Positions 1,022 to 11,856 of a stretch of DNA of 12,691 nt are shown in pieces. The stretch covers positions 1 to 12,691 of the forward strand of contig JAQVDA010000012.1 of NCBI GenBank assembly GCA_028698535.1, written 5' to 3'. Position 1 is the stretch's first letter; the number at the start of each line of letters is the position of its first letter. The stretch comes from Bacilli bacterium. Lineage in GTDB: Bacteria; Bacillota_I; Bacilli_A; RF39; UBA660. The notes beneath the pieces are model-generated. The model had not been told where the DNA came from. It did not search any database and worked only from the letters and a program-made list of their open reading frames with translations. Both the position numbers and the translations under genes were made by a program.

Positions 1022-2356
1022 ATGCGGAAGGTAATAGCTATTATCCTAGGTAAAATAGCTAAACAAGTATTAAAAAGAAGAGATGGTGGTAGTGCTTATC
1101 CTGGTGCTTTAGCCAAAAAAATATGTCCCGATATCTTAGAGGTCTTGATTCGTCCTAAATTAATCGTGGCGGTGACCGCTACTAACGGGAAAACATCAAC
1201 GGCTACCATTATTACTAATATGTTAAGTCAAAATGGCTATACGGTGGGTTTTAATTCCTCAGGTACCAATACTGATAATGGTGTTATTACTTTACTAATT
1301 GATAGTTGTAATTTAAAAGGTCAGGTGGTAAAAGATGCCTTAGTTTTAGAAGTTGATGAGCGACATACTAAAGAAGTGTTTAAACATCTGCAACCCGATT
1401 ATTTAATTATCGGAAATATCACCCGCGATCAAGCGCCCCGTAATGGTCATTTGGATGTTGTCATGACGGCGATGAAACAAGCCTTAAATGATAATATGCA
1501 TTTAATCGTTAATGGTGATGACCCGCTGATTAATAAGTTAACTCTAAATCACAAAGGTAAAATTACTTACTATGGTGTTAGTAAAAACGAAGCTTCTTAT
1601 GTTAAAGCGCGAGTTACTAATTTAGATATTGCTTATTGTCCCAAATGTCACGCCCGTCTAGAATTTAAATACTTTCATTATAGTAATACCGGTGATTACC
1701 TTTGCCCTAATGGCGATTTTAAAAGGCCTAAAATTGATTATGAGGCGACTAAAATTAATTACCGTTATAAGCATTTTTATATTAATGATCAAATTAAGTT
1801 ACCAATGCAAAATGATATTTTATTTCATATCTATAATACCATGGCGGCTTTTACCTTAAGCCAATTAATTGGTTTAAAACCAGAAGATGTAATTGCGAGT
1901 TTAAAGAATTTATCTTTTTCTATTATTCGCTTTGAGAAATTAAAACTGGATAATCGTCCTTGTACCGTTTTATCTTGTAAGAATGAAACCCCTAATAGTT
2001 ACGATCAATCATTATTATATATAAAGCGTCATAGAGAAAAGAAAACCGTGGTGATGGGCTTTAATCGGGTTTGTTCGCGATATACCTGGAGCGATTTAGG
2101 TTGGTTATGGGATGCGGACTTTGAGGTTTTAAAGGACAGTAATATTGATAAAATAGTTTGTGTTGGTAAATTTGCATATGATGTTGCGACTAGATTAATT
2201 TATGCGGGTATTAATACCGATGATATTATTATTTGTCAGACGCTTGATCAAGCCATTAAAATCATAAGGAAAAAAACCAAGGGACCAATTTATGCGGCTT
2301 TAAATTTTGATATTGTAAGACAATTTGCAACTGAGGTAAAAGAGGTGACTTTATGA
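1022..2356 (+). CDS. murT: MurT-like Mur ligase family protein with degenerate zinc ribbon and C-terminal motif
   Basis: MurT is the ATP-dependent Mur-ligase-fold subunit of the MurT-GatD complex, which amidates the alpha-carboxyl of D-Glu in lipid II at the cytoplasmic membrane face. At 444 residues this protein is of usual length. It has the P-loop TATNGKTST (K57), EVDE, N-I-x-RDQ, the NGDDP motif, a zinc-ribbon insert (C206, C209, C228), IYN in the central domain, RFEK, and the C-terminal DUF1727 end WLWDADFE. Two departures stand out. The fourth ribbon Cys is replaced by G231 (codon ggc, one base from tgc), and the conserved D-N-x-A-D-G-type stretch is replaced by residues 348-357, with only D358 kept before GWLWD. 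It overlaps the GatD-like gene by four bases (ATGA), which suggests coupled translation and a complex. Family membership is clear; that it still amidates lipid II is doubtful given its partner. Confidence 0.85.
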   Translation: MRKVIAIILGKIAKQVLKRRDGGSAYPGALAKKICPDILEVLIRPKLIVAVTATNGKTSTATIITNMLSQNGYTVGFNSSGTNTDNGVITLLIDSCNLKGQVVKDALVLEVDERHTKEVFKHLQPDYLIIGNITRDQAPRNGHLDVVMTAMKQALNDNMHLIVNGDDPLINKLTLNHKGKITYYGVSKNEASYVKARVTNLDIAYCPKCHARLEFKYFHYSNTGDYLCPNGDFKRPKIDYEATKINYRYKHFYINDQIKLPMQNDILFHIYNTMAAFTLSQLIGLKPEDVIASLKNLSFSIIRFEKLKLDNRPCTVLSCKNETPNSYDQSLLYIKRHREKKTVVMGFNRVCSRYTWSDLGWLWDADFEVLKDSNIDKIVCVGKFAYDVATRLIYAGINTDDIIICQTLDQAIKIIRKKTKGPIYAALNFDIVRQFATEVKEVTL

Positions 2357-3078
2357 AAATAGTTATTGCTCATTTATACTACGACTTAATGAATTTATAC
2401 GGTGAAAGTGGTAATGTTAAAGCCTTAAAGAAGTATTTAGAAGAACAAGGCGTTAAAGTAACGATTAAATTTTTATCGTTAAACGATACCATGGATTTTG
2501 CTACTTATGATTTTGTTTATATTGGGGCTGGTTCTGAAAATAACCGTTTATTAGTCTTAAAGGATTTAAAACGTTATCAAAAAGATATAAAGCGGTTTAT
2601 TGATGAGAATAAATTTATTCTCGCGACTGGTAATGCTCATGAAATATTTGGTCAATATATTATTGATCTTAATCATAAAAAACATAAAGCCTTAAGTATT
2701 TTTGATTATTATGCGAAAGATGTTGATTTTCGGATTGTTGATGAAGTTTACTTTGAAACGCCCTTAGTTAAGAAACCCCTAATTGGTTTTCAAAATCAAG
2801 CGTCTATCTTAAGGGATAATCCCCATCCTTTATTTACCGTTATTATGGGGGTCGGTTCTTACCCAAATAGTAAAACCGAGGGTTTTAGATACCATAATTT
2901 TTATGGGACTTATATTACGGGGCCATTACTAATTAGAAATCCGCATTTTACTAAATATTTAGTTAAAACCATATTAAAAAACAAGTATCCCGATTATAAA
3001 TATAAAAATATTAATAAAAACATTGAAGAGACGGCCTACCGGAATTTTACTAAACATCTATTAAGTATTAAACAATAA
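2353..3078 (+). CDS. gatD: GatD-like class I glutamine amidotransferase homologue lacking catalytic Cys and His
   Basis: GatD supplies ammonia from glutamine to MurT. The protein (241 residues, normal length) follows the family throughout: N-terminal YYDLMNLYGESGNVKAL, an IGAGSE turn (58-63), the nucleophile-elbow region, IGFQNQ, a GVGS..NSKTEGFRYHN stretch, and GTYITGPLLIRNPH. However, the elbow that normally reads C-G-G-Y-Q-x-x-G is G93-N-A-H-E-I-F-G100, and the catalytic His in GTYLHGP is T189. The chain contains no cysteine at all, so it cannot be a conventional Cys-His glutaminase. The flanking residues are well conserved and the frame is intact, which argues against sequencing error or recent decay. 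It starts in the MurT-like stop (ATGA) with GAGGTG at 2342-2347. I infer a non-catalytic partner or a changed reaction; the symbol marks homology only. Confidence 0.85.
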   Translation: MKIVIAHLYYDLMNLYGESGNVKALKKYLEEQGVKVTIKFLSLNDTMDFATYDFVYIGAGSENNRLLVLKDLKRYQKDIKRFIDENKFILATGNAHEIFGQYIIDLNHKKHKALSIFDYYAKDVDFRIVDEVYFETPLVKKPLIGFQNQASILRDNPHPLFTVIMGVGSYPNSKTEGFRYHNFYGTYITGPLLIRNPHFTKYLVKTILKNKYPDYKYKNINKNIEETAYRNFTKHLLSIKQ

Positions 3079-10608: not shown

Positions 10609-11043
10609 ATGAATAAAAAAAAAATTATTTATCTTGATTATATTTATCAATTAGGATACTTAGATTGTGATAATAATTTTAAGCGGGTGAAAGTAGGTAC
10701 TATGTCCGATATAGATTGCTTAACGATGCGTTATCAAAGTGTTAATCAATTAGTTGCTGATCTTAACTTAGACATTACCGACATAGCATCCCCCTTTGAA
10801 ATAAGGTCTTGTTGTGGCCCGGAAAGATATAAGGTTTTTTATCGCCATGGTGATGAGAATTACCGTGCTTTATTAAAAAGAGCGTTTCGGGATATACTTA
10901 ATGATAAAGAGGAATATTTAGAAGAATTTATTAACCTAATTAATCAAGCTGATAATTTAGCTTTAAGAAAAGGTATTAATGCGCATAATGAATATTTAAA
11001 AACTAACTTATCAGAACTTAATTATAATATTTATAAAATTTAA
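10609..11043 (+). CDS. Unrecognised 144-residue soluble protein
   Basis: I do not recognise this protein. It is predicted soluble, without signal peptide or membrane segment. Visible parts are an N-terminal strand KKIIYLDYIYQLGY, a polar central region with SVNQLVADLNLDI, then FEIRSCCG with adjacent cysteines, YKVFYRHGDENYRALLKRAFRDIL, and an acidic helical stretch EEYLEEFINLINQ. No zinc-ligand or catalytic pattern is obvious. The start ATG is supported by AAGGAG (10595-10600) overlapping the topA stop codon, so the gene is probably cotranscribed with topA. The general layout (strand, helix near a Y-x-S/L-x-x-L segment, a strand ending VFYR, then helices) loosely resembles the next gene product, but this is by eye only. 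Confidence 0.75.
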   Translation: MNKKKIIYLDYIYQLGYLDCDNNFKRVKVGTMSDIDCLTMRYQSVNQLVADLNLDITDIASPFEIRSCCGPERYKVFYRHGDENYRALLKRAFRDILNDKEEYLEEFINLINQADNLALRKGINAHNEYLKTNLSELNYNIYKI

Positions 11044-11061: not shown

Positions 11062-11856
11062 ATGGATAACAAATTAATCGGTAAGGGCACAAAAGGTTAT
11101 GTAAGTATTATTTATATAACACAAAATGAAGAAACAATATTACCAACACCTGTCGCTGGTCCTATTAGAAATCTTGATGCACAAATTGGTACTTTCGTAA
11201 GCCAAGATGCTTATCAAAATTATTTACAACAACAAGGATTTATAAAACCAGGACAAAGAATCAAAAAGATTGTGTTAGTTTATCGTGCCAAGGGTGAAAA
11301 TAGATATCTTGATGTTTTATATCAAAATGATTATCAACATTTTAATAAGATGTTAGAAGCTATAGAAAAAAAACTCTATTACCCTGATGAATATGAATCA
11401 GCTTCCATATTTGATATTATCCGTGATACTTTTCCTAATGTTGATTTACAAACCCTTAACAAAGTATTTATCAAGCCACGGGCTCAACATAACCAAAAAT
11501 TACAAACTTTAGCGAGCGCGCTTATTATCTCTAAACGGAATAATGAACCCTATCTGGATATTTTAGAACAACTATTAGATGCCTTATTATATAACAGACC
11601 TCAACCAAAAGGCCCTTATGACCAACCTCATCCGCGGATTAAATACAGCGAAATAAGACGATTATATACTTTACTACAAGCTAATAAATTGCCCCAAAAA
11701 GAGCCCACCCAACTAACTATTCATGATGTTATTTCTTCCCCATTAAAATCAGTTAGTAATCCTAGTATTGATCAATGTCGTGAAGAAATAAGAAGGATTT
11801 TAGAAATGGATGCTCCTCAAAACCCCAAAGATAATCCAAAAGGTAAAAGTAGGTAA
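11062..11856 (+). CDS. Unrecognised 264-residue soluble protein
   Basis: I do not recognise this protein. It is predicted cytoplasmic and has no membrane segment. The N-terminal half shows YVSIIYITQNEE, IGTFVSQDAYQNYLQQQGF, and KKIVLVYRAKGENRYLDVLYQND, suggesting mixed strands and helices. Then come EYESASIFDIIRDTF and a helical region around residues 150-180. The last 70 residues are Pro- and Gln-rich in places (RPQPKGPYDQPHPR), end with a helix CREEIRRILEMD, and finish in a low-complexity tail of Pro, Lys and Asn. The ATG has a weak GGGGCGAT ribosome binding site (11049-11056) and lies 18 bases after the previous gene. Its last codons form the 5' arm of a terminator. Function unknown. Confidence 0.78.
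   Translation: MDNKLIGKGTKGYVSIIYITQNEETILPTPVAGPIRNLDAQIGTFVSQDAYQNYLQQQGFIKPGQRIKKIVLVYRAKGENRYLDVLYQNDYQHFNKMLEAIEKKLYYPDEYESASIFDIIRDTFPNVDLQTLNKVFIKPRAQHNQKLQTLASALIISKRNNEPYLDILEQLLDALLYNRPQPKGPYDQPHPRIKYSEIRRLYTLLQANKLPQKEPTQLTIHDVISSPLKSVSNPSIDQCREEIRRILEMDAPQNPKDNPKGKSR

Follow-up and report, generated by a model that had tools for sequence, protein, structure and literature searches.

The lipid II isoglutaminyl synthase MurT/GatD, described in Staphylococcus aureus, Streptococcus pneumoniae and Streptococcus pyogenes (PDB entries 6gs2, 6h5e, 6fqb and 9sq9), is the closest known counterpart of the protein pair analysed here; S. aureus and S. pneumoniae both depend for their viability on the amidation that it carries out, and drug-target work presumes that GatD is a glutaminase. 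The S. aureus subunits are inactive with any donor when taken alone (PMC3266927); glutamine is no longer deamidated when GatD bears C94A, H189A or R128A (PMC5871853), and the catalytic triad of GatD includes a residue of its partner, MurT D349 (PMC6113224). In the C94G mutant of S. aureus GatD, glutamine-dependent amidation is abolished and the ammonia-dependent activity is unaffected at pH 8.5, while at pH 7.5 ammonia is used neither by the wild-type enzyme nor by C94G (PMC3266927, Table 2 for the latter). A MurT loop lying over the GatD active site has been considered a possible ammonia conduit; in S. pneumoniae, Ala at MurT Asp139 or Glu143 has only minor effects on activity, D136A and D139A alter the MurT/GatD ratio, and Asp136 and Arg140 matter for activity (PMC6085368).

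The murT-gatD locus of the window

The DNA analysed here (the window) is a stretch of 12,691 nucleotides from a Bacilli bacterium (GenBank assembly GCA_028698535.1, contig JAQVDA010000012.1). On its forward strand, a murT-like gene (1022..2356; 444 aa, Mur_ligase_M and MurT_C domains) overlaps by 4 bases a gatD-like gene (2353..3078; 241 aa, Pfam GATase_3) which encodes a glutaminase-dead GatD. The product has the fold of GatD over its full length; the catalytic Cys (C94 in S. aureus) is replaced by Gly at codon 93 (2629-2631), the catalytic His (H189 in S. aureus) by Thr at codon 189 (2917..2919), within the motif GTYITGP, and Cys is absent from all 241 residues. The nucleophile elbow is accordingly remodelled to G-N-A-H-E-I-F-G (codons 93-100; 2629..2652). 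A preliminary description of this DNA had claimed the loss of both catalytic residues and of every Cys from a full-length GatD, in an intact frame overlapping murT, and all of this is borne out. The match to Pfam GATase_3 (57 bits, cut-off 27) attests homology only, the catalytic residues being absent; the scores against the NCBIfam equivalogs are below their cut-offs both for GatD (NF045636; 150.2 bits, cut-off 400) and for MurT (NF045635; 206.3 bits, cut-off 800).

The partner has kept its ATP site, with the P-loop T-N-G-K-T-S (codons 54-59; 1181..1198), the P-loop Lys K57 and the Mg-binding Glu E110, and it has also kept the Asp completing the GatD triad (codon 358, 2093..2095; equivalent to S. 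aureus MurT D349), the third member of the shared triad. The loop R-D-Q-A-P-R-N-G-H (codons 135-143; 1424..1450), whose placing toward GatD is taken from PMC6085368, carries Pro and His where canonical MurT has Asp139 and Glu143. In the zinc-ribbon of this MurT, C206, C209 and C228 are kept and the fourth position is Gly (CPNGD, window 1703-1717); of the canonical and variant MurTs as defined below, 26 of 31 and 100 of 131, respectively, have Cys there. Elsewhere in the window, a topoisomerase I gene is followed downstream by two ORFs (10609-11043, 144 aa, and 11062-11856, 264 aa) with zero Pfam matches at E 0.01.

Extent of the clade

From 240 ORF hits, removal of those shorter than 150 aa and of duplicates left 168 distinct GatD ORFs, which fall into two classes without intermediates: 32 have both the catalytic Cys and His (canonical), 136 have neither (variant), and none has just one. 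Residue 93 of the variants is Gly in 133, Glu in two and Ser in one; residue 189 is Ile, Leu, Val or Thr in 132 of the 136, and never His. A MurT ORF lies on the same strand at most 300 bases away for 161 of the 167 GatD ORFs other than that of the window.

The state is fixed among the closest homologues. A search with the window protein gave 1113 homologues; in the best 120 of these, residue 93 is invariably Gly, and residue 189 is Ile in 111 proteins, Leu in 6, Val in 2 and Thr in a single one, that of the window. Of the 698 found from a Massiliimalia protein, the best 120 have Gly in 120 of 120 cases and no His. The check proposed in the preliminary description, whether the changes are fixed in homologues, thus returned Gly in all 240 proteins listed and His in none; both lists being ranked by similarity, they speak for fixation and not for prevalence. 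In the window's family a GatD match occurs in 61 of 145 sampled genomes, and the 68 GatDs read in 60 of them (one weak match, G124, was left out) comprise 66 with neither residue and two canonical ones (L037 and L039). In a sample of the class, 43 of 296 genomes have a GatD match, 20 variant and 23 canonical, and among named genomes the best 80 of 590 relatives comprise 72 variant and 8 canonical proteins. The variant loci include those of Massiliimalia massiliensis strain Marseille-P2963T and M. timonensis strain Marseille-P3753, a genus placed by NCBI in the Oscillospiraceae. The glutaminase-dead GatD is thus fixed throughout a large clade, many bearers of which come from animal guts; the loss noted in the preliminary description stands, and its scope, a single protein, was too narrow. 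No description of a Cys-less GatD clade was found in literature titles and abstract openings, which scarcely covered subscription journals and preprints. MurT/GatD itself is known; what is apparently new is the natural GatD clade without glutaminase residues and with co-changed MurTs.

Some diversity within the clade deserves mention. In two GatD homologues (L237:1968-2750, genome G183, and L238:1983-2750, genome G194) Glu takes the place of the catalytic Cys and Arg that of the His, in the motifs A-I-E-Q and G-T-Q-L-R-G-P, with the partner MurT loops RDHVERQSD and RDHIERQSD; judging from the residues, a salt bridge replacing the catalytic pair is possible. Two GatDs, both variant, are present in 8 of the 60 family genomes (G027, G063, G085, G086, G099, G112, G143 and G144), and in several of them one copy is a member of a separate subfamily (for instance L048 and L049, with the MurT loops RDSMHRNAH and RDSIKRNGH), which suggests that duplication and divergence have affected the glutaminase-dead pair itself. 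In the second-subfamily GatDs L041, L043 and L046, the first oxyanion loop reads GPMSE or GSMTE, without the LYYD start, and their MurTs have GTNGK[TS] P-loops.

Origin and selection

On trees of MurT plus GatD, of MurT alone and of GatD alone, a single change is needed (SH-aLRT 98, 94 and 92, respectively), the GatD catalytic columns having been excluded from every tree using GatD and the MurT loop columns from the MurT-alone tree; on these quick and unrooted trees, some branches of which are long, one origin of the variant state is favoured, though not proven. In the 25 closest of 33 close pairs of variant GatDs, dN is about 0.02-0.21, dS 0.27-3.4 and dN/dS 0.04-0.33, in pairs that share members and in reading frames taken from stop to stop; no pair includes the window's own gatD, and the nearest relative fetched for it shows 62% identity. 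Variant GatDs are under purifying selection, as judged from these close pairs of relatives, and the selection for a role other than glutaminase activity that had been surmised from the single sequence gains in this way the support of relatives in the same state.

That the protein of the window is a product of decay or an artefact, whether a pseudogene, an assembly error or a chance loss, might be suspected from the in-frame stops present in a few relatives; such an explanation, countered by the intact frame, by a cluster of four members on three contigs to which the window protein belongs, by the 136 ORFs in the same state and by the low dN/dS, is extremely improbable. Nor has glutamine-dependent chemistry been lost in general: the sole PF00117 GATase found in the window's own genome, which we take to be CTP synthase, retains its Cys in the glutaminase motif GICLGMQ, and the loss is therefore specific.

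Residues changed and kept in GatD

Around the lost nucleophile the variants share an elbow of their own, T92-G93-N94-[AS]95-x-[ED]97-x-F99-G100, with the following occurrences in 136 proteins: T92 131, G93 133, N94 122, [SA]95 128, [ED]97 116, F99 124 and G100 125. Among 236 variant columns, with a mean top-residue frequency of 0.52, G93 ranks 6th and T92 9th in conservation, so that the dead elbow seems more conserved than a bare scaffold needs; the strained turn of the elbow is probably the reason why Gly is favoured at 93. Four residues invariant in the canonical proteins (32/32), the oxyanion-hole Gly94, Gln97, T153 and G161, are replaced in most or nearly all variants, the oxyanion-hole Gly mostly by Asn. 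H149 and G151, equally invariant in the 32 canonical proteins, are mostly replaced (of the 136 variants, 16 still have the His and 25 the Gly), and Asp18 (32/32 canonical) has become Glu in 99 variants and is still Asp in 32.

The residues involved in MurT contact or gating have instead been kept: N196, P191 and G190 in all 136 variants, G17 in 134, N21 in 131, Y16 in 125 and G20 in 119. Arg127, which corresponds to the glutamine-sequestering R128, is retained in 105 of 136, and this retention hints at a ligand. A shifted nucleophile was looked for among the GatD columns compared: in none of those at least 80% conserved in the variants is Cys or Ser the most frequent residue. Residue 95, where 67 of the 136 have Ser and 61 have Ala (Ala in the window), cannot be a shared nucleophile.

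Changes in the MurT partner

The MurT loop has changed in step with GatD: Asp139 is present in 31 of 31 canonical partners and in 0 of 131 variant ones, Glu143 in 31 of 31 versus 3 of 131, and Leu138 has become Pro in 84 of the 131. Asp136 and Arg140, important in S. pneumoniae, are both retained in the MurT of the window and in the variants; given the minor effect of the alanine substitutions at Asp139 and Glu143 in the former organism, the loss of these two residues need not imply a new route. The P-loop Lys, the Mg-site, the negative-gate and the interface residues are retained in variant MurTs (K57 in 129, E110 in 128, D136 in 128, R140 in 126, K320 in 130, D358 in 109, W361 in 127 and D364 in 128 of 131), and in the N-x-D-D-P stretch N164 and D167 are each found in 127 of 131. 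The K-N-P-x-G region is altered and the ATP site retained. Many variant MurTs (e.g. L074 and L076) have the P-loop GSSGKGS instead of GTNGKT, while the ATNGKTS of the window is near canonical; the P-loop of FolC, GTNGKGS, resembles the GSSGKGS form.

A new and conserved elbow, the replacement of H149, G151 and T153 in most variants, and a MurT changed in its loop and K-N-P-x-G region with its ATP site kept, would all suit a pocket and loop that take another amine, an amino acid or a polyamine instead of ammonia, to be joined to the D-Glu alpha-carboxyl; MurT is, after all, a Mur ligase, and the usual reaction of that family is the addition of amino acids. Such an amine on the D-Glu alpha-carboxyl is required in group B or glycine-substituted peptidoglycans. 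We consider this explanation rather unlikely: the replaced residues are only supposed to form the pocket lining, a donor other than ammonia is purely hypothetical, and the conservation of the elbow may merely preserve a strained backbone turn. In its bolder form, which we hold to be unlikely, the clade would be a new amide ligase, with the dead GatD as donor-binding and gating subunit and a non-ammonia amine placed onto the alpha-carboxyl of the stem-peptide D-Glu; if true, it would be a candidate for the ligase starting the bridge in group B peptidoglycans, an enzyme which, to our knowledge, represents a gap. No usable description for group B peptidoglycan was found in the papers searched, PMC3749518 and PMC4155827 among them; for RF39, an m-DAP peptidoglycan has been predicted, which speaks against the attachment of another amine, in a source (PMC10868615) whose searched text makes no mention of GatD or MurT.

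Cell-wall link and genomic context

A match to MraY occurs in 142 of 145 family genomes (132 above cut-off); for the class sample the figures are 130 of 296 and 121. In the class sample, all 20 variant genomes have such a match and the variant is found in none of the 166 genomes lacking it, an association (Fisher p 2.9e-8) which ignores relatedness, 15 of the 20 variant genomes coming from one family. Within the window's family, no association between GatD (61 matches) and MraY above cut-off was detected (3 of 13 genomes below, 58 of 132 above; p 0.24); since Mur ligase matches are present in 12 of the 13 genomes below cut-off, all but G047 (13 of 14 checked, with G131 added), this within-family test says little. 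Walls are likely to be general in the family, and the absence of a GatD match from 84 of 145 genomes, though 142 have MraY, indicates that the function is dispensable there. The window's own genome has four Mur ligase domain matches, MurT included; in the variant genomes G055 (81% complete) and G074 (90%) there is one Mur ligase match beyond MurT, that of G074 being a fragment.

The MraY match in every variant genome of the class sample, like the MurT core kept at N164 and D167, argues against a GatD turned into a regulatory or ligand-sensing subunit (for glutamine or another metabolite, for example), whose MurT would act on another envelope carboxylate. The retained Arg127, an elbow conserved without catalysis and the P-loops that in many variant MurTs have shifted to forms such as GSSGKGS would suit a sensor; on balance, we regard this role as decidedly unlikely.

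No conserved third gene was found beside the pair in 60 distinct variant loci (out of 72, the remainder duplicating other loci); besides murT, the commonest neighbour family occurs in 10 of the 60, on the opposite strand. Genes which we take, from their sequences, to encode FtsQ/DivIB-like proteins, MurB and MurG lie in 6 of the 60 loci each, at most 4.5 kb downstream and on the other strand; they are absent from the window. This context bears on the idea that glutamine-derived ammonia is supplied in trans by a separate glutaminase docking on the pair: a local source would solve the difficulty that the S. aureus enzymes do not use ammonia at pH 7.5, and the lack of a conserved third gene makes it very unlikely.

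A variant and a canonical GatD were never found in the same genome, be it in the 60 genomes of the family, in the 43 of the class (the two samples overlap) or in 12 reached through loci, many of these genomes being incomplete. The search for a second, intact murT-gatD recommended in the preliminary description likewise found none in the window's own genome, 80% complete, nor beside the variant elsewhere. Such a lack of coexistence is better explained if the canonical enzyme was replaced than if a function was added.

Proposed function of the pair

Because the same Gly has been fixed, the GatD-MurT contacts kept and the loop rebuilt, the pair is best read as a free-ammonia amidotransferase without glutaminase, its MurT using the ammonia and its GatD being indispensable as a structural partner; to this we give about an even chance of being correct. 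MurT would activate a carboxylate with ATP, most likely the D-Glu alpha-carboxyl of a lipid-linked cell-wall precursor, and ammonia, from solution or from another enzyme, would attack the activated carboxylate; GatD would no longer produce ammonia, MurT being presumably inactive without it as structural subunit, and the MurT-GatD loop may have been rebuilt so that outside ammonia can enter. In this picture we infer that the two proteins form a complex, what the acceptor is, that ammonia is the donor, and what the loop change is for. Among the options offered in the preliminary description, those of a structural partner and of direct ammonia use match the behaviour of S. aureus C94G (PMC3266927). 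The failure of the S. aureus enzymes to use ammonia at pH 7.5 implies that a cytoplasmic ammonia enzyme needs further adaptation and, together with the over-conserved elbow, it makes another donor, or a ligand that is sensed, conceivable.

Comparison with known systems

A large natural clade that keeps GatD without its glutaminase chemistry separates the scaffold role of this subunit from its catalytic role, and the homology-based name "glutamine amidotransferase" is probably wrong for the variant proteins. The state of D-Glu in the wall is relevant to what the host receptor NOD1 senses (PMC11132681), and for gut-bacterial walls it can now be tested in Massiliimalia, a named genus for which strain genomes exist.

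Compared to the lipid II isoglutaminyl synthase of S. aureus, S. pneumoniae and S. pyogenes, the variant pair lacks the catalytic Cys and His, has a new elbow motif and mostly Asn in place of the oxyanion-hole Gly, and in the MurT loop it has lost Asp139 in 131 of 131 proteins and Glu143 in 128 of 131. S. aureus C94G bears the identical Cys-to-Gly change; it is, however, a laboratory point mutant, whereas the clade is natural and carries many co-changes. The archaeal MurT-like proteins are likewise without a GatD glutaminase partner, but in the archaea bearing MurT-like proteins only, the gatD gene is absent, while in the variant clade it is kept and catalytically dead (PMC11915815). A bacterial parallel can finally be drawn to the carbamoyl-phosphate synthetase I of land vertebrates, whose class I glutaminase domain has no catalytic Cys and which runs on free ammonia (PMC7657897); it differs from the variant pair in being an animal enzyme, with a fused domain and another substrate.
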